From: Atriophallophorus winterbourni
Lineage: Eukaryota > Platyhelminthes > Trematoda > Plagiorchiida > Microphallidae
Reading direction: 5' to 3'
Assembly (NCBI GenBank): GCA_013407085.1
Contig: JACCGJ010000269.1
Span: 186,001-250,000 of the forward strand
Length of the DNA stretch: 64,000 bases
The notes beneath the pieces are model-generated. The model was not told the DNA's origin. It did no database searches and saw only the letters and a program-made list of their open reading frames with translations. The number at the start of each line of letters is the position of its first letter. The first letter of the stretch is position 1. The translations under genes were made by a program, and so were the position numbers. This document shows, in pieces, positions 31,389-62,043 of this stretch.

Positions 31389-31794
31389 GTCATTCTGAAC
31401 CGAGACCGATCTACTTTTGCCCATTCACCAAAGGTCTGTGTGGTTGGAGCAATGATTTGAATAATTGGAAGCATCGTTGGTCGGTAGTACAGAATGACTT
31501 GTCCTCGGTCATCCAGTCGTTTTGCTGTTTATCAGCAGACGCGAGCTCAGACGTTTATGCACCAAAAGTAGACGATTCACCGTGGTTAACCTCCGATCGA
31601 TCGATGACACCGAACGCCGTCACGAATTTTCGACAAGCTGAAGCAATTCAATCTCGTCTATGGAGTTCCGTTATTCCCATGGCGATGCAACTTAAGTGTT
31701 TGGTTTTCAATTACCGCATTGAGATCGGACAGAAATCTCGAAGCCATTCTTTGGAATCATCCGTATCTTTGGCTCTACTGAGAAGACTCGAAGG
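31389..31794 (+). CDS. Alternative exon A1, MAM-like first half
   Basis: The exon is 406 nt, from TTCCAG|GT to GAAGG|GTGATT. Landmarks in order are YFCPFTKGLCGWSNDLNNW, a second Cys pair start at CCLSADASS, SRLWSSVIP, KCLVFNYRIEIG and the exit LLRRLEG. It carries a longer central loop than most siblings, rich in Ser and Asp. It is closest to A3. Joining A1 to A2 would give a stop after 12 codons. Confidence 0.85.
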
Positions 31795-31968
31795 GTGATT
31801 GATCAGCTCATTGTTTTAGGTCTATTTTCACCCACTAATTTAATCTTGTGCGTTTGGTACGATTGCACTGCGAGCAGGGGTCTTCAGGTGCAAATGTACG
31901 TTACAAATAAATAACTACTAATGACAGGCTTGCTCGCACGCACCTAGCAATATGCCATCCGATTTCAG

Positions 31969-32299
31969 GTTCTCCACCAATCAGTTGGCTATCCTGCCAG
32001 TTTAACAATTCTCCGGATTCCGCGCCATGCGAATGGGTGAACGATGCAAACAACTGGTTTGCCAATTGGCGTCCCGTGCGAATATCGCGAAATTACACGG
32101 CTCTGTGCACTGTGCTTTCTCGACGCGGTCATCGAATGAAATCTAGCGCCATGGATACGACATCCCCGCGGCACGTGCGCTTAGTCAGCCCTCCGGTCAC
32201 TGAAATGGATAATATTAAGTGCTTGCGATTCGCTGTATTATTCTCCGAGTCCTCAACGGTGTACCCGTTAAATTTAGCGTTACTCAAGCGACATGAAGG
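31969..32299 (+). CDS. Alternative exon A2, MAM-like first half (divergent)
   Basis: The exon is 331 nt with acceptor TTTCAG|GT and donor AAGG|GTGAGC. It begins LSCQFNNSPDSAPCEWVND, then LCTVLSRRG, HVRLVSPPV, IKCLRFAVLF and LLKRHEG. It keeps all four framework Cys but replaces the usual RLWSP strand by RLVSP and is rich in basic residues. It is among the shortest members and has no close sibling. Confidence 0.83.
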
Positions 32300-32475
32300 G
32301 TGAGCACAGCCCCTTTCGTTTTTCGTCCTTGTGCTATTACTACTAAACCGAAGAATTTTGAGGGATATGAAGTCTGCGCACGTACTCGCTTCTTCTGGTC
32401 ATTTATTTATTCCTATCGACTGCCTTTTCCGTTATTCGGACCTACCAGTTCAGGCTCGTTCGCACTTTGTTTCAG

Positions 32476-32875
32476 GCCATCAAACACCAAAACCCGTTTA
32501 TTTTTGCCCATTTACCGATGGTCTCTGTGACTGGAGTAACGATTTCAACAACTGGAAATTCCGTTGGTCTGTAACCTCAAGTTCCTATCCAATCAAACAA
32601 TCTTTCGCGTGTATCTCAGCACAACCTGCGGCGGATCAATCTACTCCTATTTCATCCAATTCTCCCTGGCTAATTAAACCGAGCATCTTAACACCAAGGC
32701 CGAATGCAATTCAACCGGACATCGTACAATCACGACTATGGAGCTCCACGATTCCCACTGCCTTAGAGCTGAAGTGTCTAACATTTAACTACCGAATCGA
32801 AACAGGGCTGCATGCTTCCGAGTTTTCGAACACCGATCAGACTGTTTCTCTGTCTCTGATGCGGCGTCTTGAAGG
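32476..32875 (+). CDS. Alternative exon A3, MAM-like first half
   Basis: The exon is 400 nt with acceptor TTTCAG|GC and donor GAAGG|GTGAAT. Landmarks are YFCPFTDGLCDWSNDFNNW, CISAQPAADQ, SRLWSSTIP, KCLTFNYRIETG and LMRRLEG. It shares with A1 the PxPVYFCPF entry and a long Ser/Pro-rich middle, so A1 and A3 look like a duplicated pair separated by the divergent A2. Confidence 0.85.
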
Positions 32876-33188
32876 GTGAATTTTGTTGACTACCTGGTTT
32901 CACACTTCCTATTGAATCTTTGCTTAGGTAGATCAGTTGGACACCTCACGATTATGTACCGCCAAGTTCTGCTTTACTCGAAATTCTTACCTCGAAAACC
33001 CAATCGGGTTGAGTATCCAAATCTTTCTAAAAAATATACTCGGCTTGACTACCCTTTGTTTGTAGTGTACACTTGCAAGCGTACCCTCTAGTGAATCTTG
33101 TCTGAACTTACATTCAAACCATTCTTTTACTCGTAAGTCTTGGTAAGAAAATCTAGCTTACGCCCATTGCTTTTTGTCGTCCCTCTAG

Positions 33189-33576
33189 CAAAACCACTGC
33201 ACGTTTGTACTTTCTCCACCGGACACTGTGGTTGGAGAAACGACGCCAACGACTGGAAATACAATTGGCAGGTTCTAGCTTTACCGCCAACCGATGGCTT
33301 CGCTCGTAAAGACCATGCTATGTGCCTGCTGCCGGAACTCGCAACGTCTTCTGACCTGAATCCGTTCGACTTGAGCCCGTTTTCTAGCGTTCTGCTATCA
33401 ATTAACAGTGCTGCACGATTTGAATCGCTACAGGCGCGGTTGTGGAGTCCGCCGATTTCTAACAGACTGAACATCAGCTGTATTGAATTTCGTTACCAAA
33501 TACGAATTCCTAACGCCCTTGCAAAAGACAAACTTGGAGTTGGACCTTCGCTTTCTTTGCTACGGCGACAAGAAGG
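33189..33576 (+). CDS. Alternative exon A4, MAM-like first half
   Basis: The exon is 388 nt with acceptor CTCTAG|CA and donor GAAGG|GTGAAT. Landmarks are HVCTFSTGHCGWRNDANDW, MCLLPELA, ARLWSPPIS, SCIEFRYQIRI and LLRRQEG. The junction with the signal exon gives Ala rather than Gly. It belongs to the RRQEG group with A5 to A7. Confidence 0.85.
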
Positions 33577-33728
33577 GTGAATAGCTTCGTTTAGGCTGCG
33601 ACAATTTATTTTCCTTTGCGTTTTATCTTTTTCGATTTCTCGTCGCTTGTATCACAGACTATTAGCATAAAGTAAAGCGCCGTCAGTTGTAATCTGTGCT
33701 GATTACACGAAATTCTCGCTTTACACAG

Positions 33729-34071
33729 GCGATCGACTCGTTGCCAACAATTGCACGTTTGAGCAGGACCTCTGTGGCTGGATGAACGATCCGAATAGTT
33801 GGAAGCACCGTTGGAAACGCGTGTCAAATGTAGCCGGTTATACTGGCTCATCTCTATGCCTATTCCACCCACCGCATCAGCATTCAGACTCTGTTAATCG
33901 TCATTCGATGTTTCGGTTGCCTCAAGATTCCCTACAAATCCGCATTTGGGGTCCACCGATTGAAGCAGCTGATGGAATCAAGTGTTTGCTGTTTCGATTT
34001 TTAATCGACCCGAAGCAGACCCCCACCGGCAACATCTTGCCTTCATTGACGTTGCTTCGACGCCAGGAAGG
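33729..34071 (+). CDS. Alternative exon A5, MAM-like first half
   Basis: The exon is 343 nt with acceptor ACACAG|GC and donor GAAGG|GTGATT. Landmarks are NCTFEQDLCGWMNDPNSW, SLCLFHPPHQHSD, IRIWGPPIE, IKCLLFRFLID and LLRRQEG. The middle loop is His-rich, unlike its neighbours. Confidence 0.85.
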
Positions 34072-34273
34072 GTGATTACCATGTTTCCAATTTTTTCACC
34101 CCCAGTTTATTCAAATATTTTGAATGTTTCCGGCTGCGAATGTTCCCACTTGCATGGTCTTGGGGATGGATCTTACAAGTTTCACCATCATCTTGGCAAA
34201 TTTTCACAACAGCAACCTTTCAACTTTCGGCACTCCTTTTCTGTACCATCAAGTATCGCCTTTTGTGTTATAG

Positions 34274-34646
34274 TTTCAACGGAACATTACGTGTGTACAT
34301 TCGGTGAACACTTGTGTGGATGGTCGAATGATCCGAACAATTGGCAATACGCATGGTCAATCAGTGGATGGCTCACTCCCGGTTCGATCTCAAACCAACC
34401 ACAAGAGCGCGTACTCTGTCTCACTGGTTCGCTCAAGAACTCAATTGGTGTGGATTTTTTGGGACGGTCCAATCGAGTTCCCCCAAGATTGACGAACAGC
34501 CACCCGAATTCGTTGCAAGCTCGACTTTGGAGCCCATACATCACGCGTGAAGATGCAGTGCGGTGTTTGAAGTTTTCTTACGTCTTCGATCATGTCGACG
34601 CGTATGTCAAAGGAATGTCGCTTGCGGTTCTTCAAAGACAAGAAGG
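34274..34646 (+). CDS. Alternative exon A6, MAM-like first half
   Basis: The exon is 373 nt with acceptor GTTATAG|TT and donor GAAGG|GTGAAT. Landmarks are VCTFGEHLCGWSNDPNNW, VLCLTGSLKNS, ARLWSPYIT, VRCLKFSYVFD and VLQRQEG. Val replaces Gly or Ala at the entry codon. The long open frame that starts before the exon is read-through of the intron and is not coding. Confidence 0.85.
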
Positions 34647-34844
34647 GTGAATTCGTGGTATTAATGACGAACTCAGTTGTATTAAAATAAGACTCAATCG
34701 GGCTTATGGGCCCTTATTCAGGGTTTACAACCTCAGGTTAATTAATTCTATATATATACACACACGGAACTCTTGATCTTCGTCAATCTTTCTTCAACAA
34801 TTTAGGCCTTCACTGACTCGTTCTTCTCTACTGTTCTGCTTTAG

Positions 34845-35190
34845 GTTCGACCCCGTTGAATTCCCCTCTGGATTGCGATTTTAACTTTGAATGCCGTTGG
34901 TCTGTGGATCAAAATGATTGGGGTCTTGCGGGATGGGAGAGAGTCCCGATCCCTGTGGTATCATCTAGCGAGCTGCATTCTCGAGTGTCAATGTGCTTGC
35001 AAATTTCCGATTCGCTAAATAGTGAAGATTTGGTGGCTCGTTTGTGGAGTCCCCCGATCGGTGACCAACATTTGAACGAAGTGAATAATCCAAGGTGTAT
35101 TGCCATAACGTACCAGATCATACGAGGTATCGATCGTTCAACCAAAACTGGAAACACGCCTACACTCTCATTATTGCGTCGTCAACGAGG
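34845..35190 (+). CDS. Alternative exon A7, MAM-like first half
   Basis: The exon is 346 nt with acceptor TTTAG|GT and donor CGAGG|GTAAAC. Landmarks are LDCDFNFECRWSVDQNDW, MCLQISDSLN, ARLWSPPIG, RCIAITYQIIRG and LLRRQRG. The first Cys pair is spaced more tightly than in the other exons. Confidence 0.85.
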
Positions 35191-35554
35191 GTAAACGATA
35201 CCACTTTCTTGCGTTTTCGGATAATTACTTGAGCAATGCATGATTATGGGAACCTCTACTTTGTGATCGGTGTTACAGCAATGAGTAGACTTCTTTCTCT
35301 CTCTGGGTTAAGTCATCCTATTTTGGCGTGTCAACTTCGCTCGAGATTCTTGACGATAACGATTCGAAACGCTCCACCTGGCATCCTTGAGCTCATGGGC
35401 GTTATTCTTTTAGAATTGGAATGTAAACGCTACGTTTTTCGTTAGCCATCTTCACAATCAGCTAAGGCTACACGTGTTCATAAATTTCACGACTTTTCTA
35501 TGCTTCTGGATGCGGATTCTGTGTAGTACGTATTTTCGACGGTTTTCTTTCAAG

Positions 35555-35894
35555 GTCAACAACTTTCTTGCACTTTTCGGAACTCGATCAATCCTTTCTG
35601 CGGGTGGCGAAACGATGTCAATGATTGGAATGGACGCTGGCAACTTCTTCCGTCAGGGACTTTGAATAATCAGCTTTGCCTGCTCTCGGAATCCTTTTCC
35701 GATGAGAATTCGAAGTCAACAAATTTTGGCGCACGCCTGTGGAGTGAACTGATTCGCGTCGACAATACGAAAGCAATTTCCACTGCAAAAAACCCTAAAT
35801 GTGTACAATTGTTCTATCGAATTTCACTTCCACCTGGTGCGGTTCGTCAGGATGCAAATGGTCCGAAGCTGTCTGTTCTTATGCGCAGACAAGG
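35555..35894 (+). CDS. Alternative exon A8, MAM-like first half
   Basis: The exon is 340 nt with acceptor TTTCAAG|GT and donor ACAAGG|GTGAGC. Landmarks are LSCTFRNSINPFCGWRND, LCLLSESFS, ARLWSELIR, KCVQLFYRIS and LMRRQG. Its 5' part lacks an ATG, so it is easy to miss by simple ORF calling. A longer overlapping frame from 35474 is a shadow. Confidence 0.83.
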
Positions 35895-36048
35895 GTGAGC
35901 GACCATGGTTCCGGTTAATGGCTTAGCAGCTTATCGAACTACTGGCCATGATTGTTCACGTCTGTTTTTCTGTTTTGCCAATTGTCAAATTGTCACTTGC
36001 GTTGCCCAACAACATCTGACACAGCCAGTCTTTATATCGTTCTTTCAG

Positions 36049-36364
36049 GCTCGGATGTTTCCTCTGTACCACCGCTGGATTGCAACTTCTCAGAGTCCCT
36101 CTGTCGGTGGTCAAACGATCAGAACAATTGGCCTGCTGATTGGATTCTCGACATCACCGACAGCTCTGGATTTCATCCAAACCGATTCGTTTGCCTTAGT
36201 TCATACAGAAAGTCCGCTTTCACCGCCAGATTGTTCAGTCCATTGCTAACTGACTCCAGAATCCAATGCATAAAGTTAAATTATATCGTCGAAAACGGAG
36301 TGCATCCACTTACTGTAGTGAGCAGCGATGTACCGAGGCTTAGCGTGCTACGTCGGCAAATGGG
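36049..36364 (+). CDS. Alternative exon A9, MAM-like first half
   Basis: The exon is 316 nt, the shortest A exon, with acceptor TTTCAG|GC and donor ATGGG|GTGAGG. Landmarks are LDCNFSESLCRWSNDQNNW, FVCLSSYRKS, ARLFSPLLT, QCIKLNYIVENG and VLRRQMG. With A10 and A11 it forms the RRQMG subfamily, which has RLF in place of RLW. Confidence 0.85.
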
Positions 36365-36604
36365 GTGAGGAAGAGATGTCCCGTTTTATTGAATAGTCTA
36401 TCTGTGTTCCTTTGAAGCAAGTTTGAGTTAACTAGCAACAGCCAAATCGTCCACGCTTGTAACCTCCTCGTATTTGTCATACATCTCCCACACATCCGCT
36501 GTACTTCGCAAAATGTTCAACATGTTGTTGGTTTCTTCCTCACACAAAAAATCGATTTTGTGCTATTCGCAATACACAGCCAGCTTATTTTCCCACAATT
36601 TCAG

Positions 36605-36923
36605 GCGTGCTGGGATTGCATGATCTGGATTTACCTCTGAACTGCAATTTCACCAACTCCGTGTGTCATTGGTCCAACGACCCAAACAACTGGCCGACCA
36701 ATTGGGTTCTCAATGATGTGACCGTTGCATCTTCGTTTAGCAAAGCCGTTTGCCTACGCCCTTTGAAAGGATCTAGCATAAGTGCCAGGTTGTTTAGTCC
36801 ATTACTGGCTGATGTGACAGTGAAATGCTTGCATCTGGCCTACGCTATCGAGACTGGCATCGATAGACCTCTACGTTCCTCGCGAAACGCTCCACAGCTT
36901 AGCTTTTTGCGTCGTCAAATGGG
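36605..36923 (+). CDS. Alternative exon A10, MAM-like first half
   Basis: The exon is 319 nt with acceptor TTTCAG|GC and donor ATGGG|GTGAGC. Landmarks are LNCNFTNSVCHWSNDPNNW, AVCLRPLKGS, ARLFSPLLA, KCLHLAYAIETG and FLRRQMG. It is very like A9 across the framework and differs mainly in the central loop. Confidence 0.86.
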
Positions 36924-37143
36924 GTGAGCGACCCTGGTGTGGTGGATTTGATTTATGGCAATTGTGTTTCGTGTTTTGCCTCGTCGCTCTTCATCCTCTC
37001 TGATTTATTGTTTCTTTCACTGCAAACTCGGTTGGCTCACGAGCTTCGGTCTCCCGTTAAGCATCAACAATAACTTGCGTGTTCCAGAATAACTGTGAAG
37101 ATTTTCTATACTGAAGAAAACCATTTCAATTCCATCATTTCAG

Positions 37144-37489
37144 CTACCTCCCGACAAGTGCGAAACAACAGACCTTTGGATTGTGTATTTTCTCATCAAT
37201 CTACCACATGCAAATGGACCAACGATCCAAACAATTGGCTCGCGCATTGGAATGTAAGAACACTACCTGGTGGGCTGGAAGTAGTTTGTTTCAGCGTAGA
37301 ATCTGATTCTCGTGACCAGCTGAACGTTAACGCTGCCACCGCTCGACTCTTCGGTCCACTTGTGAAGTCAAACGATCGTTCGAAATGCCTCACTCTATCT
37401 TATCACATTCATCTCGGTATCGGGTTGCAAAAAGCTCCATCAGTAACCAGTCACCTTCCTGGACTTTCGATCTTACGCCGGCAAATGGG
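37144..37489 (+). CDS. Alternative exon A11, MAM-like first half
   Basis: The exon is 346 nt with acceptor TTTCAG|CT and donor ATGGG|GTGAGG. Landmarks are DCVFSHQSTTCKWTNDPNNW, VVCFSVESDS, ARLFGPLV, KCLTLSYHIHLG and ILRRQMG. It is the third member of the RRQMG group, with an inserted Thr-rich stretch between the first two Cys. Confidence 0.85.
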
Positions 37490-37762
37490 GTGAGGTCCTA
37501 GTTGTGGTCGTTGATATGCTAAGCGATTGGCAGGAAGTTTTTCTGGTTGGTGATATTACGTGGCATCCTTTATAACGCACGTTGCTCGAAAAGTTTGTAC
37601 ATTTCGCGTTCACAGGCCGCTGCCACCTGAAAGTTACCTGGAAACAAAGATTCTTTCGAGTTTACCCCCCCATTCATTTCGTCCTTCTTTACGGCAATAA
37701 GCGAGCTTGGCGTATTTTTCATTGATACCGATGTGATTCCTTCTCGGTTTTTCTGTTACCAG

Positions 37763-38141
37763 CCTCGGTCACTCTCGATCGCTCTCCAAGTGTGCTGAAT
37801 TGCGATTTCGAAGACGACGATGATGCCTTTTGTCTCTGGCAAAAGGATCCCAGAGATCAAGGTGCGCGTTGGAAGAGACTGTCAACAGCACTTGATTCTC
37901 GAATTTCTTGCTTGACGCCGTTCACCGTTTTTTCCTCGCAACCTAACGCAAATGAACAAAGTTTGACCGCTCGTCTTTGGAGTGAAACCATCGGCATTTC
38001 CATGGGGGGAGCTCCTGTTCCGCGGTGTTTACGGTTGTTTTACAAAATGGAATTAGGCTTTGGTGTACTGCACGAATCATTCGAGTCTGGGAACACTCAG
38101 TCCCCTTTGTTCGGTTTGTCTATACTGCGTCATTCTTCTGG
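37763..38141 (+). CDS. Alternative exon A12, MAM-like first half
   Basis: The exon is 379 nt with acceptor TACCAG|CC and donor TCTGG|GTAAGA. Landmarks are LNCDFEDDDDAFCLWQKD, SCLTPFTVFS, ARLWSETIG, RCLRLFYKMELG and ILRHSSG. With A13 and A14 it forms the RHSSG subfamily, which reads DPRD where other A exons have NNW. It carries an acidic run of five Asp/Glu between the first two Cys. Confidence 0.85.
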
Positions 38142-38676
38142 GTAAGAGTTACAGCTATTGCTGTTCAGTTGACCGCGTTCTGCTTCACATACCTCGTTCA
38201 CTAGGCGCATTACCTGACGGGATTGCTTACGATAAAATGACAACAGCTTGTTTTGGCAAGAGGAAACTGTTTAGAATATCGTAATACCCCGTACTGTGGC
38301 GCACAGCTAGTGTTTATCACACCTATTACCATCCTCGTCACTTACTAAACTTACCCTTCATACTTCTCTAAAAGAAAGCAGATTGAATGTGTCCGATTAG
38401 GACTGAAACATTCTGTTCACTGGCTCTTGACTCCCACCACAGTTTCGGATTTACACTAAGTCATGCTTACAGCTAGTTGCCGGATGCTGCTCCAAATCGG
38501 GATTCGTTTCACAACCACGTTGAACATAGGAACCTTTTTAGTGCTTCTCACTTCTCTTCTTATTCTCGGAGACTTCACTTCGGTTTTTTCTTTCCTGGCG
38601 GAGCGGTTTTTTAGCCATTTAGCATTTGATTCATTCCTATTCGACATGCTGTGAGTGCAACTGATGTGCATTTTAG

Positions 38677-39079
38677 CCACTTCTAACCAACACGGACGCC
38701 GCCGAGTACGAGTGAAATCACTCGAAGCAATTAATTGCTCATTCGAAGATTTAACATTCTGTGGCTGGAACGACGATCCGCGCGATGTCTCGGTCTGGTG
38801 GGAACCAACCACGACTCAGCGTTCGAATGCAGTGTGCTTGATGCCAAGCGATGATTTTGGCACTTCGAACCGAGGTACCGCTCTTTGATCATAAAGACCG
38901 TTTTATTGTACAGCGAGTTTAGCCTCAGCAACAGGAGAAAATGCGGCCTCGGCTCGACTTTGGAGTGGGCAGATTCGTCAAGTAGCAGCTCAACGAATCT
39001 GCTGTGTACGATTTCAATATCATATTTCAGGCTTACCCCAAAACAGGGCTCATCTCGCTGTATTACGCCATTCGTCTGG
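38677..39079 (+). CDS. Alternative exon A13, MAM-like first half, split by a 39-nt intron
   Basis: The two parts are 38677-38874 and 38914-39079. Acceptor is TTTTAG|CC and final donor is TCTGG|GTGAGA. Landmarks are INCSFEDLTFCGWNDDPRD, AVCLMPSDD, then ARLWSGQIR, ICCVRFQYHISG and VLRHSSG. In-frame stops at 38886-38894 look at first like a broken exon. However, the stretch 38875-38913 begins GTACCG and ends TACAG, and its removal restores one continuous frame of 364 nt, which is 1 mod 3 like every sibling. I therefore read it as a mini-intron private to A13. A decayed exon is the alternative. Confidence 0.75.
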
Positions 39080-39199
39080 GTGAGAGGTTTATGGGCTTTT
39101 CAATTTTCTTTCAAACTTTTTACATTCTTGCGGCGCTTGGTAATCCCTCCCTAACCGGTGTTGTTTGAGTGGCCTTCAATTGATTGCGGTTTTTTCAAG

Positions 39200-39545
39200 G
39201 AACTGTGCAACAAACGTCGCCTGCGGGAGTTGTCGACTGTGCCTTTAGCTTCAATAATCTCTGCGGTTGGATGCCCGATCCAAGAGACAACGATGCTGTA
39301 TGGTCCGTTGAAGCGACATCGAGAGATGATCACTCCTTGTGTCTCAAACTCGCCTCCTCTCACCAAGCCCCGACAGACGCACAGCAATCATTCACCGCAC
39401 GTTTGTGGAGCAGACAGATCCGCCGGGAACCATATACCCCTCGTTGCTTTTCGTTTGTCTATGGTACTTTTAGTCGGCACACCCTTTCCGATAGCTTTCA
39501 AGGCAAGGTACGGCCACAATTAGCCCTATTACGGCATTCTTCAGG
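39200..39545 (+). CDS. Alternative exon A14, MAM-like first half (last of cluster A)
   Basis: The exon is 346 nt with acceptor TTCAAG|GA and donor TCAGG|GTGAGC. Landmarks are VDCAFSFNNLCGWMPDPRD, SLCLKLASSH, ARLWSRQIR, RCFSFVYGTFS and LLRHSSG. Only 120 nt separate it from A13, the tightest spacing in cluster A. The next exon on this strand is B1, 1.5 kb away. Confidence 0.85.
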
Positions 39546-41075: not shown

Positions 41076-41223
41076 GGAATGTGCTAAAAAGACGGATACT
41101 AACACCGGCCGATTTGTGATTGCGTGTGACGGATCGGAGTTGTGGACATCCGGATCCGTCGCCAGTTCAGAGTGGACGATGGTTTACGTGGATTTGACCA
41201 CAGCTTCCTCGAACTCGTATAAG
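41076..41223 (+). CDS. Alternative unit B1, MAM-like second half (unsplit)
   Basis: The unit is 148 nt with acceptor TACAG|G and donor TATAAG|GTGATT. The loop is CAKKTDTNTGRFVIAC (Cys-X14-Cys), followed by SELWTS, EWTMVYVDL and SNSYK. The conserved Cys codon is continuous, without the mini-intron found in most later units. Joining B1 to B2 would give a stop after 8 codons. Confidence 0.83.
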
Positions 41224-41346: not shown

Positions 41347-41509
41347 CTCGTGTACAAAGCATGTGGGAGCTGAGGCTGGACAATCGGCTGTGCTTTGTCA
41401 AAACACCGAACTGTGGACTTCTCCATCAACTTCGACACACACTTCTCAGTGGCACACTGCTCTAGTTGGTTTAAACCAGAGAGTAGCTGATCTACAATCG
41501 GACTATAAG
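41347..41509 (+). CDS. Alternative unit B2, MAM-like second half (unsplit)
   Basis: The unit is 163 nt with acceptor TTACAG|C and donor TATAAG|GTGTGC. The loop is CTKHVGAEAGQSAVLC, then TELWTS, QWHTALVGL and SDYK. It is unsplit, as are B1 and B4. The L-W to W spacing is longer than in B1 because of a Thr/Ser-rich insert. Confidence 0.83.
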
Positions 41510-41634: not shown

Positions 41635-41819
41635 ATCGTGTAAATCAGATGGCTTGGGAACTTATTGGTAAGCTTGTGTGGCATTTACCTGCCCCTAATC
41701 ACACACATTCAAGTCCTAGGGATCGTCTTTGGCAAACGTCCACGCACAAAGAACTCCCATCCGATTGGCATTCCACATGGGTCGACTTGCGGGATAGTCA
41801 GAATGATGCGGATTTCAAG
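41635..41819 (+). CDS. Alternative unit B3, MAM-like second half, short loop
   Basis: The parts are 41635-41667 and 41720-41819, separated by a 52-nt intron. The loop is only CKSDGLGTY and the junction codon is TG|G, giving Trp in place of the second Cys. The second part runs DRLWQTS, TWVDL and DADFK. The first part is 33 nt rather than 51 but stays in phase. It is the one unit that lacks the loop disulfide. Confidence 0.72.
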
Positions 41820-43991: not shown

Positions 43992-44151
43992 GGCTTGTAT
44001 GAAACATCGCGGTATGCACTTTGGCCAATCATCGGTGACTTGTCGAAACGACGAATTGTGGCTTTCCCAACCAGGGAATAACCAATGGCAATCTGCCAAA
44101 GTGGAACTAAGTTTGGAAACCAACGCGGATGAACAGCTTTCCAATTACAAG
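43992..44151 (+). CDS. Alternative unit B4, MAM-like second half (unsplit)
   Basis: The unit is 160 nt with acceptor ACCAG|G and donor TACAAG|GTGGTC. The loop is CMKHRGMHFGQSSVTC, then DELWLSQ, QWQSAKVEL and LSNYK. It resembles B2 in the loop (GQSxVxC). Some 2.2 kb separate it from B3. Confidence 0.82.
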
Positions 44152-44511: not shown

Positions 44512-44706
44512 TGCTTGTCAGCGTACCAAAATAGAGGATACCGGGGATTTGGCCACTGTATGGTGAGGATTGTGGTGACATTGTAAACAAACTGGTAACA
44601 TTTTAGTGCTAGTCGACCGATCTGGGAATCGCAAGGAGTCACAAATTCATGGGAACTGGTATCGATTCCGTTGAACGAATTGGCTAGTGTCGATAGAGAC
44701 TTCAAG
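44512..44706 (+). CDS. Alternative unit B5, MAM-like second half
   Basis: The parts are 44512-44562 (51 nt) and 44607-44706 (100 nt), with a 44-nt intron inside the Cys codon TG|T. The loop is CQRTKIEDTGDLATVC, then SRPIWESQ, SWELVSIPL and DRDFK. The donors are GTGAGG and GTAACG. Confidence 0.83.
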
Positions 44707-45302: not shown

Positions 45303-45488
45303 CGCTTGTGAACAAATTATTCGGGGTGAAACGGGAGATTTGGGTACCTTTTGGTGAGGTGTTGCCTTTCTAGTTTTACCGCGTCTAGCTCTACCATACC
45401 GATCTGGAAGTCTTCTGATGGTGTAGCTGGTTGGAAAACTCAGTTGATTGATCTATCCTATGCAGATCAAAGCAAACGAGATTTTAAG
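45303..45488 (+). CDS. Alternative unit B6, MAM-like second half
   Basis: The parts are 45303-45353 and 45389-45488, with a 35-nt intron. The loop is CEQIIRGETGDLGTFC, then TIPIWKSS, GWKTQLIDL and KRDFK. An upstream AG in the intron (TTTCTAG) is not used in this reading, because only the TCTAG at 45388 keeps phase 2. Confidence 0.82.
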
Positions 45489-47693: not shown

Positions 47694-47884
47694 GGACTGC
47701 CAACATACTCGGGAGCAATCTAGAAAAGGTGTAGGCACTTATTGGTACGTAAGAAGCATCGTGTTTCTAAGCTTTCAATTGTAGTTCCAGTGAGCTAATA
47801 TGGGAATCGACGGATAATAATCCTCCAGAATGGAAAATCGCCGTGTTAAGCATCGAGCACGTATCTTCGCGCGGACAGTTCAAG
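47694..47884 (+). CDS. Alternative unit B7, MAM-like second half
   Basis: The parts are 47694-47744 and 47785-47884, with a 40-nt intron. The loop is CQHTREQSRKGVGTYC, then SELIWEST, EWKIAVLSI and RGQFK. The loop is strongly basic and lacks the usual T-G. The acceptor GTTAAAG|G has a weak pyrimidine tract, so inclusion may be poor. Confidence 0.75.
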
Positions 47885-48018: not shown

Positions 48019-48217
48019 AGCTTGCCAAAAAACAACTGTACAAAACACTGGTCAGCAAGCCATTTTGTGGTAGGTATTCCGCCTGTTCACGTTTCTAACG
48101 CTCAGTGCGAATGATCCCATTTGGACATCCTCGGAGCGTATGCCAAAGCTGAACACCTGGCATAGCGCCTCGGTAGACTTATCGCTGAGTTCGAATGCCG
48201 AATCTAGAGACTACAAG
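48019..48217 (+). CDS. Alternative unit B8, MAM-like second half
   Basis: The parts are 48019-48069 and 48106-48217, with a 36-nt intron. The loop is CQKTTVQNTGQQAILC, then NDPIWTSS, TWHSASVDL and SRDYK. The second part is 112 nt, the longest in the cluster. Confidence 0.84.
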
Positions 48218-48353: not shown

Positions 48354-48612
48354 TTCTTGTGAGCAGGGAAAGCATCACCGAACCGGTGAATTGGCGACAA
48401 TATGGTAGGCGTCGCATAAACAGTGTGTTTGCGTGTGTGTGTGTTGCTTTTCGTTCCACCAACCGAAGTGGTAGCAGTCAGTCATCTGTTGCTCTTACCT
48501 TAGCACGAACGAGCCGCTCTGGAATGCGCACTCAACTAGTCTCGCTGCGGGCTCAACTTGGTATGACGCATCGATCTCGCTTGACACGGGAACCTCAACG
48601 TCAGATTTCAAG
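48354..48612 (+). CDS. Alternative unit B9, MAM-like second half
   Basis: The parts are 48354-48404 and 48504-48612. The loop is CEQGKHHRTGELATIC, then NEPLWNAH, TWYDASISL and TSDFK. Its internal intron is 99 nt, the only one above 52 nt among the B units. A longer frame crossing the intron in another register is a shadow. Confidence 0.82.
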
Positions 48613-48944: not shown

Positions 48945-49090
48945 GTTGCACACGAAAGCACACGAGTCTCACTACGATTATCTTATGTTCTCTTTTTATA
49001 ACTGTCTTAACCTGATCAACTTGAAAATATCTTAGCCAACGTGCAGTCTCTGACTATGAGGCACTTCCTTTATCCAGGTTTGTGATTTCG
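48945..49090 (+). repeat. SINE-like repeat S copy
   Basis: It holds GAGTCTCACTACGAT, a diverged CTTAACCTGATCAACTTGAA, and TCTTAGCCAACGTGCAGTCT. It lies in the B9-B10 intron. Confidence 0.6.
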
Positions 49091-50164
49091 AAAATTATGA
49101 AGATCGATCACCCGTTAGGTCTATCTGTCTGTGCCAGCTCGTGAAACAAGCTGAGCAAAATGCCTTAACGAGTAACCTGGTTATACTTGGGACAGTCGCT
49201 GTAATTTGCCCGGTAGCCACGCACTTCCACTCTACTGTTGTTAATTAATCTAAGAGATGTCACACGATTACTTATTAGTTAGTCATTAGTTTGGACACAC
49301 GGATTTTGATATTTGAAAACCACCGTCGACCTACCGTTTTACGAGCTTTCATTGCGTGTGTATGATTGGTGATTGAGGTGTACACATATAAAACGACTGT
49401 TTGATCCCTTCCCTGACTTAAATGGCTCCTTATTTTCTCTTCATCTTTTCCTGTATTTTTGGGTTACCATTGCATAGAAGTCAGGACTATATGCTTCTCC
49501 GTTCAGGTAGTGCTGTTTATGATCATGATAAATAATTGTTTCTATTCTGAATTTCGACTTCTTCCGCTTCTGCAATGTTCATTTCTTATTTTCCCCTCAT
49601 AGTGTGTGTGTAAACATTATCAAACTTCTCATGAGCGTGCAAGATTAAATTGTACGCAAACATCAATTGCATGCTTTTTGTTGTTAAGATTGCGTTCCAT
49701 ACTTCGCGTCCACATGTTTTTTGTTCGTGCCGACGCCTGATTAAACACCCGTGACCTTAAAGTTTAAACTTATTTCATACCGTCCAACTGTTTCATGGCT
49801 GACAAGACGTGCGCAGTACCTTTTGCAGCTCAGGTCACCTCGTGTTAAACTGGTTGTCATTGGTTTCGGGCTGCTATTATTGTTTTCTTGAATTTGCATC
49901 AACGTTACACAATCTCATACCCGCGACACATTTCCAGACTTCTGACTCGTGGTTTTGATACATCGTGTGGAAATAATAATAGCAATCCGCACGAAACCCA
50001 CGGAGAACGGAACAATCCTCGTTATATTTCGGTTCCCTCGAAATTCTAGCTTTATGATGTACTGATTAAGTTTCAAACAATCTTCAACAGTTGTATCCAC
50101 CCACGGATTTGCAGTACTTCAGTATTTTTGCCAGCAACACCTTGGCAAATTTATTTACCATCCG

Positions 50165-50315
50165 TACTGAGCTGCATGACAGAAAAACACCCTAGTTTCC
50201 ATACCATTTTCACTTTCTTATATTTGTCTTAGCCGGACAACTTGACAGTATCTTAGCCCATTTGCGGTCTCTGATTGCATTGCACTTTGTCTGGATCTGG
50301 CTTGTTATTCCATAC
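50165..50315 (+). repeat. SINE-like repeat S copy
   Basis: It holds GTACTGAGCTGCATGACAGA, AACTTGACAGTATCTTAGCC and CTTTGTCTGGATCTGGCTTG. It lies in the B9-B10 intron, 0.5 kb before B10. Confidence 0.65.
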
Positions 50316-50812: not shown

Positions 50813-51014
50813 CTCTTGCCAAGAAGATGTTGGCATGCAAACGGGACTTGTCTCCTTAGTTTGGTAGGTGATTCACATCGCTCGTTTTCTAATCCACTCT
50901 AACCACAGCGCGAACGATTTGTTGTGGAATGCATCGACCAGCACCGTTCACTCAACTGCGAACCACCAATGGCTAACCGCATTGGTTTCAGTAGACTCGA
51001 CAAGCGATTACAAG
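50813..51014 (+). CDS. Alternative unit B10, MAM-like second half
   Basis: The parts are 50813-50863 and 50909-51014, with a 45-nt intron. The loop is CQEDVGMQTGLVSLVC, then NDLLWNAS, QWLTALVSV and TSDYK. It lies 2.2 kb after B9, with SINE-like copies between. Confidence 0.84.
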
Positions 51015-51250: not shown

Positions 51251-51436
51251 ATCATGTCGGGCTCAAGTTAACAATCCGAATTCCTCGAGTGTTGGTGTTT
51301 TCTGGTAATCTTGTCTTTGTTAGCTCTACGAATTAGTTCTTCTGAGGTCATGTGGCGCTCCTCTGTACAAAAAGCAAATTCCCAGCTATGGAAATCCGTT
51401 TCCGTGGACCTGCCCGTTAGCGATGCCGATTTCAAG
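51251..51436 (+). CDS. Alternative unit B11, MAM-like second half, loop longer by one residue
   Basis: The parts are 51251-51304 (54 nt) and 51337-51436, with a 32-nt intron, the shortest seen. The loop is CRAQVNNPNSSSVGVFC, that is Cys-X15-Cys. It continues SEVMWRSS, LWKSVSVDL and DADFK. The AG at 51323 would place stops in frame, so the later AG at 51336 is the working acceptor. Confidence 0.8.
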
Positions 51437-51524
51437 GTCAGCTTTTATGCAATAGGTCATCAACACGCTTATCTCGTTCGCCTGATATCTGTCCATGTTA
51501 TTGTACTTTGCAATCCATGCGATG

Positions 51525-53589: not shown

Positions 53590-53695
53590 GTATCTGTCTA
53601 GGTCTGGACAACCTGACAGTCTCTTAGCCCACGTGCAGTCTCTGACTGTGAAGCACTTTGCCTGGATCAGGCTTGTGATTTCATTCATACATACG
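53590..53695 (+). repeat. SINE-like repeat S copy, right block
   Basis: It reads TGTCTAGGTCTGGACAACCT, CACGTGCAGTCTCTGACTGT and GATCAGGCTTGTGATTTCAT. It lies in the intron before the dead unit B12. Confidence 0.7.
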
Positions 53696-54236: not shown

Positions 54237-54411
54237 TATACCCCGATTGCCAGTTCCTACCGTCATGTGCTTGGCGTCGGTTATTTGGTAAGATTGTGGG
54301 CTAGTTATAATCCTGTTTAATGCGAATGAACCATTGTGGAAATAAGACACCACCACATCCACGAACTGACGATCAGTTGCCGTCTCGATCGGTGAAGTGT
54401 CTGACTATAAG
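54237..54411 (+). pseudogene. Dead unit B12, MAM-like second half
   Basis: Both donor sites survive (TTTG|GTAAGA at 54288 and TATAAG|GTTTGT at 54412). The ends SVIC and SDYK also survive, as does NEPLWK. The first part has no AG at the expected start and no first Cys. The second part has AA instead of AG before 54321 and in-frame TAA and TGA after the LW. It is clearly homologous but cannot be spliced or translated. Confidence 0.75.
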
Positions 54412-54965
54412 GTTTGTATTGCTTTTCTCCATACAAAGCGTGTGCCCTTGCACCCCTACTTCAATCGTGCTCCCTCGTTCTTTTCACATTATCAGTGTTC
54501 TTGTTCTTTCTACTTCTTTAATGCCATCTATTGATCTGTCTATTTCTTTATGCATCTGTCTATAGCAGATACTGATTTTTAATGTCATACGCTCGGGACA
54601 CCATGATTTCCGAATATCTGGCAATGCTACAAAGGCTATCGAAGCTTAAGCAAATACACACTTAGACGGAGTGGCGATTCAGGAAGGAAAAAGCTTCTAA
54701 TACCTATCTCTCGACATAGTTTTTGTACGAAGCGAACCTATACCTGATCCCAATACTCACATCTATTTATTCAAGTCTTCTTGTATTGCTCTCTACCCTT
54801 CTTACAACGCGACGGCCGATGTGTTGTTTAGTTTAACGTCTGCGCCTTGTCTGCGACTAATTTTGTCTGCATGTCTGTTGTTCAGTTGAGCTCTCTTCTC
54901 CTTTTTCCTTTCTCTATCTTTGCTCAATTACATCCGGTCTCGCGTTTCATTTGCTCGTCATTTAG

Positions 54966-55148
54966 CTCTTGTCGCACAGATATTGACGCCAAAACTGGTC
55001 TTCCTTCGGTTATTTGGTAAGCGATCCACTCTAGTCGAATTCTTCATATAGTGCCAACGAGCCTATTTGGACTGCCAATGGTCCTTTGCATGTTAAAGAC
55101 GGTTGGAACTCGGCCAGCATCATGCTGGATGCTTCCTCGGACTACAAG
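54966..55148 (+). CDS. Alternative unit B13, MAM-like second half
   Basis: The parts are 54966-55016 and 55052-55148, with a 35-nt intron. The loop is CRTDIDAKTGLPSVIC, then NEPIWTAN, GWNSASIML and SSDYK. It is the closest intact relative of the dead unit B12, sharing the SVI end of the loop. Confidence 0.84.
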
Positions 55149-56353: not shown

Positions 56354-56549
56354 GGCTTGTAAACAGGTACAACGCGGTCAATTTGGTAGTTCATCTACCA
56401 TGTGGTAGGTTAAACACATTTAACATCTCACGTCTCCTCTCAGCGATAACGAGGGTTTATGGATGGCTGATTCTCACGCAGCCATAACATCTTCCTGGAC
56501 CTCCGCTCATGTAGAATTGAGTCAGGTCGAAAGTGATTCAGATTATAAG
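56354..56549 (+). CDS. Alternative unit B14, MAM-like second half
   Basis: The parts are 56354-56404 and 56444-56549, with a 39-nt intron. The loop is CKQVQRGQFGSSSTMC, then NEGLWMAD, SWTSAHVEL and DSDYK. The loop is Ser-rich after the conserved Gly. Confidence 0.84.
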
Positions 56550-56840
56550 GTAATTGTTTACCCTCGGCCAACTTTCGTACGTTCAGTCTATACCCTTAAT
56601 TTCCGACGTTGTCGTAGCCACTGTCCCCTTTGATTGTGCCATCATTTTATTACCATGTCTCAGCTATTGTCATCAGTGTCCCGTTGTGAGATCTGCGTAC
56701 CCTCGTATGATATTGGATCAGTCTCGTGTTTGGCTTGGTGCTGAATCACTTCTTCTCTACCACTTCCTTTCCTTTCGTTTATTTGACTTTGTGTTTTCGA
56801 TGTTCGATGTTTGTACGCTCCAATGTCTTTCGTTGAATAG

Positions 56841-57036
56841 TTCTTGCCGCAACCCTGAACCATCGGATGCAATCAATGTAGAAATGCGATGGTAGGTGGG
56901 GTTTTCCGAATCGCGTTAATTAACGCTTTTTCACAGCCTCTCTACCGTACTGTGGCGTAGCGCCAATGAGCTGTCACCCTCTTCCTGGCGATTTGCACAG
57001 ATCGATATGAATTTTCCCGATGACAAAGATTTCAAG
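56841..57036 (+). CDS. Alternative unit B15, MAM-like second half
   Basis: The parts are 56841-56891 and 56937-57036, with a 45-nt intron. The loop is CRNPEPSDAINVEMRC, with no T-G, then STVLWRSA, SWRFAQIDM and DKDFK. It is only 291 nt after B14. Confidence 0.82.
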
Positions 57037-59506
57037 GTGTGTTTGCGAACGAATTCGATTTGTAATCGGCTTGAAACACCGTGTTTGTCTGGTATACCTG
57101 GCTTAACGGCATTTCTTTTGCAAACAGCTGGCTCGTACATTCTCAGTCTGGTCTCTATCATGCTTTCCGTGTGATGGATCATGTTCGCTTTTGGTACTAC
57201 GTATATTTTCACATTGGCGTAACCTTATACTCGGCTCCTTTTTCCGGATGAGAATGAGTTTCATGTTATCAGACTTATTTTACTTTTATATAATATTTCT
57301 ATTGTTTGTGTCATGGAAGCTGGTGACGGGTCAGTTAGAAATGGAAAAAAATGATATCGTTGTGGAAGTGGGAATGCTGTCTTTAATCACTAGCACGCAA
57401 TGCAGTGCGATACCGTTTAGTTATAAATCAGAATTTGTTTGCTTTAAGGTGTGCATCTTGCTCAAAAGATAGACAGATGTGACACGATAGTTTCAGACTC
57501 AGTACCCCTTTCATAGGACATCTGCCGCTGTACATTTTCGTCAAGACCATTCTAACCGAGAATCGTTTGACAATTTTGTTACGACCGGGGATCTCAGCTA
57601 CATGATTGCTTTTTATATTTTGTCTCTCTTACCCGCTTCTCTCTTCTATAGCACAAAAGTTAATTATTATTTTTACGCACGTGGTATCAAATTGCGAGCC
57701 TGAAACCTAGTAAATCGCCACGTAGTGCCAACGTGCTTAACCGTAGCGCATCACTGATGACACCCATCCCAGCTGACAAACAATTTCTCGTGTTAGCGAC
57801 TCAGTGGAACTGAATGTGGTGCCCCACCAAGTGAACGTGCTGTGGTCATTTTGTTTTCTCTTTCATTGTCATCATGTTGTCTTCTCGTGATCGATAACTA
57901 TCGACTCCGTCTAATCTACCCGTATCTTATTCTGCGTGTACATCAGGTCATTTTTGTCGTCCTCGCATTACGCCACATTGAATTTTGCTTTCACTGGAAT
58001 TTCAAACTATACTAGAGCGCGATTTCGAAAGGTTATTATGAAATTGATGTTTCTGTATAATGCGAACAACCGAGCCACGTTTGGTACAGAATATCATTGT
58101 TCCATCTATCACGACCGAGTATCTATGATTGGCGGCAGGATACCAAACTATCCACACTAAACACATAGCAGTCTGCTAGCCTTTTACTAGTTTCTTAGTA
58201 ATTTGCTTTCTCTCGTTTTCTTGCTACTGTACCGTGCCGTCTTTAAGAGAGCAGACCTATGTTTTTATCACGGAGATACTGCATGGTACAGTGGATCACG
58301 ATGCAACATAAACTGTAAGGTTGTTTACGTCCTTTCCACATCGTTTTCGCCGATTTTCATGACAACCACAATCCGTTAGTAATCGAATCAGTGTAAATGA
58401 ACTCAGGTCTACATATTTTACTAGTTTGATGTCTTATACCGATAACTTTCTTCTTGCCACCGCCTCATTCCCAGATTATTTCAACTTTTCACTGCCGAAT
58501 TATTTCGTCAACAAAGAAATTCTTTCTCAGGCTCCATAGACGAACTCTTAACGCCTGGGCATCCTCATTTTATCTGGCTCACTTAACAGTAAACTTGCAC
58601 AAACTTCCTTGTCAGTTTATCTCGTACAATGTCATTCACCGAATTTCTGATTTGTAACTGTCGTGAGCTGCTGAATTATCTCGATTAAATAAGCACCTCA
58701 CTAAAACACATTCTCGTTTCATCTTTTTACATTCATTCGGAACACTTAAACTCGTAACGATACCTGTCATGAACTTTGTGACTGGCTTTATGAAAACGAT
58801 TTGAAAGTCGTAAACTGATAATCAGGCGAAATCAGCGCAATCTGATCGATTCATTTTCCTTTTATCTCTTGGCTTCTTCGCATATCTGCTTCATGTTGCC
58901 TGACACTTAGTCTGGTCTAATGATGATCATGAATGTGATGAGCTGTTTGATGCACTGCGAGACTATCAAGACCCATGGACATTGTTCCTGCATAGTGTAA
59001 ATTTAATTGGTATACAAAACACACTTCTGTCATCGTTCGTTTGAGTACTACCTTTCTCTGTTAGCTCTGCGGGAGAGCTAGTTCCTCTCGAATCGGACTG
59101 TTTTGGTCATTCTAAAAGATGTGGAGCATAAATTAATCATGCTCCCATTTTGTAAATCTATGGTCGATATGGACTGAAGGAGACACACAAACATACCCTA
59201 CACATGGTCCCGGAAATTCCAAGTTTTACGCTTTGTCCCCACTGAATTCTTCTCCACATTTTCCCTGTCATCAATTTTTACAATAAAATACAACCAAACT
59301 TCGCGTGTGTAGCCGCTTCATCTAGCACTAGTCGTTCTTCGCGCCCGTCTGAAAATTGACGGTCTATTGGGCCTTTTTCCATGGAGTGTTCTTCAGCGTC
59401 AGTGAAGTCTGTTGTGCGTTGAATTTCATCTTCCTTAACAAGTTGCCCTCTTCAATATGTTTGCTTTTTTACCAATTGCTTATTTCTTGATGCTTCATCT
59501 GTTCAG
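57037..59506. other. Long intron between B15 and B16
   Basis: It holds open segments at 57191-57472 and 57936-58160 with no known domain and an RTE 3' remnant at about 59060-59190. A stretch at 58240-58310 reads AWYSGSRCNINCK followed by GT, faintly like a B end but without the LW, and I do not call it. Confidence 0.35.
59060..59190 (+). mobile_element. RTE-like 3' end remnant
   Basis: GTTCCTCTCGAATCGGACTG and TGGTCGATATGGACTGAAGG match the same positions of the RTE-like copy at 27957-28060. Confidence 0.55.
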
Positions 59507-59689
59507 TTCCTGTACCGCCAAAACTCGCGATAAAACCGACAGAATAGCGGTCACGTGGTAGGTCAAACGTTTGCTACTTGAAATTGCTTCAGTGAGAATC
59601 AGCTGATGTGGCAGTCAAAGTCAGCTGACATTGGATCTTGGCTCGCGGTTTCGATCGATTTGCACGCATCGCCCTTGTCTGATTATAAG
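59507..59689 (+). CDS. Alternative unit B16, MAM-like second half
   Basis: The parts are 59507-59557 and 59593-59689, with a 35-nt intron. The loop is CTAKTRDKTDRIAVTC, then ENQLMWQS, SWLAVSIDL and LSDYK. Its junction reads C-E-N, as in B17 and B18. Confidence 0.84.
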
Positions 59690-60398
59690 GTGGGCGCATC
59701 TGCTCAGGAAATCTTATTTCTTTACTTACTTATTTGGCATGAAATCTTTATTACTGATCAGTATTGTGCATGCTTCGATCCCGATTATCACAACTGTAAA
59801 GGTCTATGACCGGAAGCAATGTAGGCGTAAGCTAGTCCTGAGTTGTTAGAATTTAGTTTATAAATGACTGTTATTCAAAAACGAGTGCACGACCACGTCT
59901 TTCTGCTGGTTCGTCTTTTCCCTCAGTATTAATACTGTAGATAGGCATTTTTGAATGTATCTTTAAGTTCTTAAAGTTTTTGACTGCTGATCCATTGCTA
60001 TACCCAACATCTGGAATCTCCTTGCCACAAATACTCATGTTCCGTTACCACTGAAAACAGGTTTTCGTATCTGTCACTTGTAGCCTTCACTGTTTTGATA
60101 TCCTTTCATTCAATCGCCATAAAGTCATCGCCTCGGCGCAATCTACATCTGTCACCCTATTTGTATTTTGCGTTTGATCGTAAGATGTTTGTTTCACAAG
60201 TCTGGAGCCAGACAGTGCCTTGCGCCGCATACAACCTCGATTTTATTTGTTCATCTACGTGCCATACAAGCAAATACATCACTCACACCTTCAAGTCCGA
60301 TTGAGCTTTGCATGTCATCTTTCCTTTCTTTCTTTCCATTGGTTTTTCGTTCTCTCCTCTCATTGCATTCAACGACAAATCGTTTTGCTTTGCTCCAG

Positions 60399-60590
60399 CG
60401 CATGTACAGCAGTTCAACGAAAAAGCGAGGACACGTTTGCTGTGCTATGGTATGATGCTTCCATTTCTCATCACAGTTATTTTCGATTAGCGAGAATCGA
60501 CGTCTTTGGTCCTCATCAATTTGCGATGAAACGTCTTGGTGTACTGCTTCTGTAGAACTCGGCGGTGTTGACGTCCTGGCGGACTACAAG
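60399..60590 (+). CDS. Alternative unit B17, MAM-like second half with extra Cys pair
   Basis: The parts are 60399-60449 and 60491-60590, with a 41-nt intron. The loop is CTAVQRKSEDTFAVLC, then ENRRLWSS, an added CDETSWC, TASVEL and LADYK. The Cys-X5-Cys lies between the LW and the W-x-x-A motif. Confidence 0.83.
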
Positions 60591-61334
60591 GTGTCAGAAT
60601 AATCTGTTGATTGCTTCTTCTTGTTTATTTTCTCACTATCTAAATTGCTATAAAATCACTAGTCGTTTTGAAATTGAGGAAATAAACTGTGAAAAATCAA
60701 TCATAGCCGTAACTCCTAATGCTCTCGCCACCACTGTTACTAAGTGTAACTGCCCAATTACTCACCGTTTTCTTCATTTCTCCCTCACCTTATTAGCCTT
60801 ACGTGCTTCTGCTGTACTGAATTTATTTTCAAAACACTACTACTTACAAATCTTTTCACTATGCTTATGTCGATCTATCTCGTGGCACTGTACTATCTTA
60901 ATATTGATCAACTTGCTTACAGTCCCGTTGTCTAACTCACCCTAAATATTCTTTTCTTTTGACTTGCACCTGATTCTTCTTCTTGTCTGTATTTGAACCT
61001 GTTCGCTGATGGAAGTCGTACCATGCATGGAATCACAAAGTTGGCATCGAGTCACGTGGCTTCTAACAATGCTATACTTGAAACCTAGTTAAGTAACTGA
61101 GCTCGAATTCCGGGTGGGTTGTGGTCTTTCACTGTTTGTCCTCGCCTTTTACATGTGGCGTTTTTCGTTGCCAACATTCACTTGAACTATACGATTCTTC
61201 AGTTAGCCTTGTCGTTGTACGCGTGAAGGCCATCAGGAAGAACCTTTGTTTTGACCTTGATTATTCACAACCACGCCGTTTACCCCACTTTAGCTTGTTT
61301 TTCATGATGATTAGGAGTCTCTATTTCCCCCTCA

Positions 61335-61430
61335 TATCTGTCTAGGCCTGGGCAACCTGACAGTGTCTTGGCTCACATGCAGTCTCTGACTGTTCGGCAC
61401 TTTGCCTGAATCAGGCTTGTGCTTTCATAC
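61335..61430 (+). repeat. SINE-like repeat S copy, right block
   Basis: It reads CTAGGCCTGGGCAACCTGAC, TGCAGTCTCTGACTGTTCGG and CAGGCTTGTGCTTTCATACC. It lies 0.4 kb before B18. Confidence 0.75.
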
Positions 61431-61846
61431 CATACCTATCCAGTTGACCAGATGCTAGTGGATATCTTGTCAAATTGACTTCCCGTGGTAATTTCTTGTA
61501 GCTAACAACACACCGCAATTGTACGTTAGACAACGTGGTATTGTTTCGATTTATATGTCATATTGACTGTGTTGCGCAACAAATCTGCTTTATGCATCGT
61601 TGTATTGCCACGACTCAAAGATTTTTCTTTTGTCGCCATTGTTTTTCTCTGTTGACTGTGCTCACGACGGATATATTGTTGATGGCGCCATGGACACGTT
61701 TCGTTCGATTTAGTCAATTTTGCGTGTTGCTTTTATGGTTGTTCTAACTTTCTTTCGCATTGTTTCTCTTTTATCTAACCTCCTTTGTTGGTCGATTCCA
61801 CGAGTTTCTCATCTCATCTTAGCGGTACCACTTTACCACTTTGCAG

Positions 61847-62043
61847 AGCTTGTATGGCCGTTCAACGGGGAGACGAGAATAAGTTTGCGGTGACATGGTA
61901 CTTTGTCTATTTCGCTCATATCTCTCATCTACAGTGAAAACGAACGTTTGTGGAATTCACAAATGTATACATGTAAGGATTCGTCTTGGTGTTTTGCCCG
62001 GGTGGATTTGGCGGCCAGTGGGTCTGACGCATCAGATTATAAG
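61847..62043 (+). CDS. Alternative unit B18, MAM-like second half with extra Cys pair (last of cluster B seen)
   Basis: The parts are 61847-61897 and 61935-62043, with a 37-nt intron. The loop is CMAVQRGDENKFAVTC, then ENERLWNS, CKDSSWC, FARVDL and ASDYK. Like B17 it has an added Cys-X5-Cys, so the two are probably recent duplicates. No further unit is visible up to 64000. Confidence 0.84.

Follow-up and report, generated by a model that had tools for sequence, protein, structure and literature searches.

We describe a locus of the trematode Atriophallophorus winterbourni at which two arrays of related exons, a predicted leader exon and a single constant end very probably form one gene for a diversified surface receptor. 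The window analysed is the whole stretch of 64,000 nucleotides (nt), positions 186001-250000 of contig JACCGJ010000269.1 (C246) in an assembly of 537 Mb. The analysis also took in flanking sequence of 60 kb and 80 kb (this 140 kb contains 1000 N), and positions beyond the end of the window are given in window numbering. On the forward strand, an array of A exons (31389-39545), each coding for the first part of a MAM domain, is located entirely 5' of an array of B units coding for the second part (41076-62043 within the window). A preliminary description of this DNA had counted 14 A variants followed by 17 intact B variants, all on one strand and with GT-AG borders, and had taken them for a Dscam-style system in which one of each is chosen. 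Both counts stand. Its coordinates and borders agree with ours almost to the base, and the interval that it gave opens exactly on the first base of A1 (31389) and closes on the last base of B18 (62043).

Thirteen of the A exons are clean, each with AG before it and GT after it: A1 (31389-31794), A2 (31969-32299), A3 (32476-32875), A4 (33189-33576), A5 (33729-34071), A6 (34274-34646), A7 (34845-35190), A8 (35555-35894), A9 (36049-36364), A10 (36605-36923), A11 (37144-37489), A12 (37763-38141) and A14 (39200-39545). The remaining exon, A13 (38677-39079), carries two in-frame stops unless a 39-nt GT-AG mini-intron (38875-38913) is removed; with this spliced out it is an intact exon of the right phase, and introns of 32-99 nt also occur within the B units of the locus. 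As called, the A exons run from phase 1 to phase 2: two bases complete an earlier codon and two (GG) are left at the end. Several have additional AGs nearby, some of them in other phases, so the start of an A exon is a choice. We took the phase-1 AG before the first Cys, which is present for all 13 clean exons.

Passages of PMC3228551 characterise mutually exclusive exon clusters by similar length, the same splice-site type and frame, homology and the presence of one exon per mRNA. The clean A exons are of similar length (316-406 nt). Their homology is seen both in the alignment and in a profile scan: a profile built from the 13 clean exons recovers the frames that it was made from at E 1.1e-25 to 2.5e-35, as it must by construction. 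It also picks up A13, which did not contribute to it, as two halves at E 7e-8 and 3e-7; the best of all other frames on the two strands of the window reaches E 0.09. Over 12 exon pairs, non-synonymous divergence (dN, Jukes-Cantor (JC)) is 0.35-0.78, and synonymous divergence (dS) is saturated in 11. The 150-nt flanks of three A pairs never scored beyond the best of 20 shuffles. All seven genome matches to A9 and both genome matches to Pfam MAM fall on the contig of the window. No A array was seen elsewhere in the 537 Mb genome with these searches, which recover only part of the known array, so distant copies may exist.

The B array comprises, within the window, 17 intact units and one broken unit. 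Three of the intact units are single exons: B1 (41076-41223), B2 (41347-41509) and B4 (43992-44151). The other 14 consist of two exons that share a split Cys codon; the first (the B1 exon) measures 33-54 nt (51 nt except for one of 33 and one of 54) and the second (the B2 exon) 97-112 nt. These units, all on the plus strand, are B3 (41635-41819; exons 41635-41667 and 41714-41819), B5 (44512-44706; 44512-44562 and 44607-44706), B6 (45303-45488; 45303-45353 and 45389-45488), B7 (47694-47884; 47694-47744 and 47785-47884), B8 (48019-48217; 48019-48069 and 48106-48217), B9 (48354-48612; 48354-48404 and 48504-48612), B10 (50813-51014; 50813-50863 and 50909-51014), B11 (51251-51436; 51251-51304 and 51337-51436, with a 32-nt intron), B13 (54966-55148; 54966-55016 and 55052-55148), B14 (56354-56549; 56354-56404 and 56444-56549), B15 (56841-57036; 56841-56891 and 56937-57036), B16 (59507-59689; 59507-59557 and 59593-59689), B17 (60399-60590; 60399-60449 and 60491-60590) and B18 (61847-62043; 61847-61897 and 61935-62043), the last in the window. 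All intact units run from phase 2 to phase 0: they supply a single base at the start and finish on a complete codon. The broken unit, B12 (54238-54411, start approximate), has two stops in its B2 part and, among the acceptors listed, none usable for a B1 or B2 exon.

The array continues beyond the window and ends at 68141. Four further units are present there, three intact (64154-64344, 65141-65341 and 67960-68141) and one without an AG before its B1 exon. The whole locus therefore has 14 A exons (A13 as spliced) and 22 B units, 20 of them intact. The introns within B units (41668-61934) are short, 32 to 46 nt in 13 of the 14 two-exon units and 99 nt in the other, and are absent from three units. 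A 94-nt dispersed repeat is present in four copies among the B units (48999-49092, 50220-50313, 53591-53684 and 61335-61428).

Upstream, a predicted signal-peptide (leader) exon is located at 25475-25517 (+). It encodes MIWLGLFLLGFCAN plus one base (phase 1) and has the donor GTGAGT. Of five candidates in the upstream 91 kb, this exon came first in a ranking by similarity to four leaders from flatworms, and it is for that reason a prediction. A TTTCAG acceptor lies 3 nt ahead of its ATG (25466-25477), so it may join a 5' untranslated exon or a trans-spliced leader. No downstream exon of the gene was found within the window. Beyond it, constant exon C (70323-70410) encodes LILEGTIPAGYPDARICVDNITSYTEPCS, the end of the MAM domain, and starts in phase 0, as the B units require. 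It is followed by exon D (70602-71231), which encodes a hydrophobic, transmembrane-like stretch and a tail; further tail sequence matches occur at 76.4-77.1 kb. C and D gave one match each in the genome search. Two other stretches, L003:9101-9178 and L004:1056-1136, are alike and weakly match the tail of the relatives described below (E 0.89 and 0.80); they are perhaps a duplicated tail exon.

The preliminary description placed a MAM-like domain in two halves. The domain is indeed MAM: the join of A5, B4 and C matches the whole Pfam profile (PF00629, 1-158) at 42.6 bits, with a cut-off of 26.4. The division into two has to be revised, as a third part comes from the constant exon outside the window. 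Six of the seven complete ectodomains or proteins scanned pass the cut-off (P0042 falls short at 21.7 bits), and no other family exceeded its own cut-off. A second set of joins, which covers 13 of the 14 A exons and 12 of the 17 B units, always with A5 or B4, matches MAM in 24 of 24 cases at a loose E of 1 (best 3.5e-9). The nearest solved structures by sequence are neuropilin MAM domains. A, B and the constant exon C together make up one MAM domain, and both variable parts are therefore likely to shape one binding surface.

An audit of the reading frame was carried out over the whole locus. All 14 A units (A13 as spliced) and all 20 intact B units have a length of 1 mod 3 and AG/GT borders; splice-site type and frame are the same in 14 of 14 A and in 20 of 22 B units, the two others being the one without an AG and the broken one. 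When leader, A, B, C and D are joined in this order, 280 of 280 combinations are open (260 without A13). The figure of 14 x 17 = 238 isoforms proposed earlier becomes 14 x 20 = 280 (260 if A13 is dead) for the whole locus. Other arrangements are closed: two A exons (leader-A-A-B-C-D) give 0 open joins of 1820, two B units (leader-A-B-B-C-D) 0 of 2660, omission of A (leader-B-C-D) 0 of 20, and omission of B 0 of 14 (leader-A-C-D) or, with two A exons (leader-A-A-C-D), 0 of 91. Since like exons share a phase through duplication, phase alone is no proof of exclusion; still, use in series is out of frame.

Relatives of the gene occur in other flatworms. Among the 7991 candidate proteins sharing most words with the query, a search with 24 A+B joins gave nothing at E 0.01 and a chain of five A+B joins retrieved five flatworm proteins. 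The constant tail retrieved 66, one of them common to both searches, which makes 70 in total. According to their source names they include the flukes Clonorchis, Opisthorchis, Paragonimus, Dicrocoelium, Calicophoron, Trichobilharzia, Heterobilharzia and Schistosoma and, beyond flukes, tapeworms and Protopolystoma. A scan with the A and B profiles finds exactly one A and one B match in 50 of the 66 proteins with the constant exon; the other 16 have no A and one B (eight), neither (one), several B (five) or several A (two). As to one exon per mRNA, 36 of the 37 proteins that bear the leader (annotated records of other species) contain one A and one B, the exception being P0013 with three A. All 37 have G, A, V or D where leader and A meet, which is what a split codon begun with G requires. 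The tail of the relatives carries PPPGYDEA and LPPRR motifs, which we take to resemble WW- and SH3-binding sequences.

We consider it very probable that the locus is one gene, in which the leader and the single constant end are combined with exactly one of the 14 A exons and one of the 20 intact B units, likely giving up to 280 versions of a single-pass cell-surface receptor. The direct evidence consists of the exon borders with their phases, the frame audit and the constant end, which is single, together with the presence of one A and one B in most annotated isoforms from schistosomes and Dicrocoelium. The Dscam-style reading of the preliminary description is upheld to the extent that the frames permit it and that those isoforms show one leader, one A, one B and the constant end. 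A transcript would start from the leader exon, and the spliceosome would link the leader with one A exon, followed by one B unit and then by C. The predicted product is a type I membrane protein; its one MAM domain would be variable in the first two parts, and its constant tail would pass on a signal. We infer that this species transcribes and splices the locus likewise, that A and B pair freely and that off-frame products are destroyed. MAM domains act in adhesion in some receptors. The A and B parts are likely to shape one surface for cell-cell or self/non-self recognition, and the receptor may have a role in recognition or cell identity.

Free combination of A and B bears on the number of isoforms. 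The 46 schistosome representatives (some short at the N end) contain 13 A types, 17 B types and 44 distinct A-B pairs, with types clustered at 72% identity over all species and pairs pooled over species; in these annotated records pairing is combinatorial, as had been proposed. Alternatively, A and B could be chosen by cell type or in fixed pairs, leaving far fewer than 280 isoforms. We regard this as improbable but as the strongest of the competing explanations: the 44 pairs are part of 13 x 17 = 221 possible ones, and free pairing in this species is something we infer. Absent pairs mean little, as the records were sampled by clustering at 90% identity. Fixed pairs also fit poorly with one A type that occurs with eight B types and one B type that occurs with seven A types (pooled over species), and with a single A paired with six B in S. 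mattheei alone. S. mansoni P0057 and P0062 have the same A and different B.

A number of observations weigh against exclusive use of one A and one B. For this species the evidence is the genome sequence alone and no transcript was seen; the leader exon was selected by its likeness to relatives; and the database isoforms are annotated records in which a read-based or gene-model origin is not visible. In the frame audit, leader-B-B-C-D was stop-free in 45 of 190 joins. Among the relatives, P0012, P0063, P0066, P0067 and P0068 hold two to five B, and in the isoform P0029 (S. margrebowiei) A leads straight to the second B exon, the symmetric B1 exon being skipped. Five database models string four to seven A exons (P0001 has seven A and one B, while P0002-P0005, with four to seven A, have no constant exon), and P0013 has three A and one B. 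Such models would be expected if all or many A exons were used in series to give a long protein with repeated first parts, an explanation to which we attach very little probability. None of the 1820 joins with two successive A exons keeps the frame, the A matches of P0013 are separated by 41 and 23 residues that the A profile does not cover, and a single A and B is the rule among the leader-bearing proteins. In our reading the stringed-exon models are automated predictions. Frame and relatives together support the exclusive use of one A and one B that is predicted here.

It is just as improbable that each A is the first exon of its own promoter and is spliced to a B, as in chelicerate sDscam and clustered protocadherins. 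Such tandem 5' arrays are known (in passages of PMC4835542). Here, each of the 13 clean A exons has a phase-1 acceptor before its first Cys. A leader is also shared by isoforms that differ in their A exon: the five S. mansoni entries, over four A types, have one in common, the three Dicrocoelium entries, over different A exons, likewise agree in their leader, and 27 entries of other Schistosoma species share one. That the array is a relic of decayed copies around one working pair is scarcely credible: although one B is broken, one B beyond the window has no AG and A13 contains stops unless spliced, the window retains open frames and intact borders in 13 A and 17 B while the tested introns have lost similarity, and several A types group with schistosome A types.

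Other observations tell against parts of the proposal for a single MAM receptor with exclusive exons. The Pfam comparison of A+B joins suggested in the preliminary description gave weak support: of five joins without C, A5+B4 passes (31.1 bits), A1+B8 is below the cut-off (18.7) and three have no MAM match. B4 alone matches nothing, and A5 alone is over the cut-off (27.3 bits); the reversed join B4+A5 reaches 30.6, so the A+B score says little about B. A structure model (AlphaFold; P0057 with 35 isoforms) was poor, with a mean pLDDT of 46.9, and a Foldseek search with it gave no match in PDB at E 0.001. Finally, a limited search for docking sites around the A array found nothing better than shuffled introns. 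Duplex energies with the introns before all 14 A exons were calculated for three regions (2.0 kb before A1, 1.5 kb after A14 and the first 1.5 kb of the leader intron) and compared with three shuffled sets, in a single species; the B array, the introns that follow the A exons and a further 2.4 kb of the leader intron lay outside the scan. Best means were -20.8, -22.4 and -22.9, compared with shuffled minima of -20.2 to -21.6, -23.0 to -23.4 and -21.4 to -22.9, and in no region was the best mean below the lowest of the three shuffled sets. Dscam-type pairing of docking and selector sequences may exist although this limited scan saw none.

The repertoire seems to be old. In a tree of 60 A sequences, A2 groups with an S. 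mansoni A type (100/99), A8 with S. mattheei and Heterobilharzia (100/97), and A1 and A3 with S. bovis (99/94), while A7 falls in a group of five (96/93) and A13, in its spliced form, in a group of seven (99/96); the details of this tree are unsure, since only 18 of its 57 inner branches have good support and long branches were flagged in it. Since A exons of the window group with A types of other families, several A types are, as judged from these sequences, old and held apart. The constant part hardly changes: exon C is identical to Clonorchis in 29 of 30 residues, compared with approximately 31-46% identity for the A exons in their best matches within a Clonorchis protein. That several A types are common to fluke families points to defined roles of individual A exons rather than to random antigenic change. 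A wider proposal, whose chances we judge to be evenly balanced, is that a receptor barcode based on splicing, ancient and independent of Dscam, is common to flukes and tapeworms. In this barcode two variable parts of one MAM domain would be chosen separately and rejoined, the combination would be one in which each cell is distinct and which serves self-recognition, and the split-codon phases would enforce one exon per array.

Mobile sequence is present in the window on the 5' side of the leader exon. A long interspersed nuclear element (LINE)-type element at 11480-14425 (-) has an open frame of 982 residues with Pfam Exo_endo_phos and RVT_1, and a reverse-transcriptase fragment (8781-9206) lies on the strand opposite to this frame.

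Several known systems can be compared with this locus. Schistosome MAM proteins (for example, UniProt A0A5K4F897 of S. mansoni) represent the same gene, with the same constant end and a leader-A-B-C layout; they differ in being from other species and in having diverged A and B sequences, with the constant exon nearly unchanged. MAM receptors of other kinds match in sequence mostly over the A part (neuropilin-1, E 5e-4; enteropeptidase, E 0.009; MDGA1, E 0.15). The open-access papers listed on MAM and mutually exclusive exons showed, by title or abstract start, no exon arrays of this sort for a MAM gene, and those on the MAM domain and Schistosoma nothing on this gene by title. The preliminary description knew of no MAM gene so organised, and the open-access matches listed gave no account of this gene by title or abstract start; preprints and most subscription papers are outside this scope, and a prior description is possible.

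Chelicerate sDscam has, in passages of PMC4835542, tandem variable cassettes joined to a constant end, with a promoter per cassette. The fluke locus resembles sDscam and the clustered protocadherins in its tandem variable cassettes and constant end. In those systems every cassette comes with a promoter and a start codon of its own, whereas the fluke locus has one predicted leader for all A exons, and in the relatives the leader is common to proteins with different A exons.

Dscam1 has a constant transmembrane end, and the ectodomains of the Dscam family consist of immunoglobulin and fibronectin III domains; in the seven sequences scanned here, MAM alone passed its cut-off (in six). Passages of PMC9013439 and PMC8787164 describe Dscam1 of insects and crustaceans as having tandem clusters of alternative exons, from each of which one exon is taken by mutually exclusive splicing, and the latter describes a docking site and selector sequences for the exon 6 cluster. 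The fluke locus is like Dscam1 in that one gene would have tandem alternative-exon clusters with one (predicted) choice per cluster and a constant transmembrane end. It is unlike Dscam1 in that no docking or selector signal appeared in our limited test, in its MAM rather than immunoglobulin domain, in its two arrays, which vary two parts of one domain, and in its occurrence in flatworms. As the variable site is divided within one domain, differences in A and in B could multiply on the same surface. In arthropods, Dscam1 is known to yield hundreds of surface receptors by combinatorial splicing. If our interpretation is true, the fluke gene, with its relatives in schistosomes and tapeworms, would be a second, unrelated case in another phylum and domain family. 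The trick would then have evolved more than once, and general rules of combinatorial splicing would become testable by comparison of the two.

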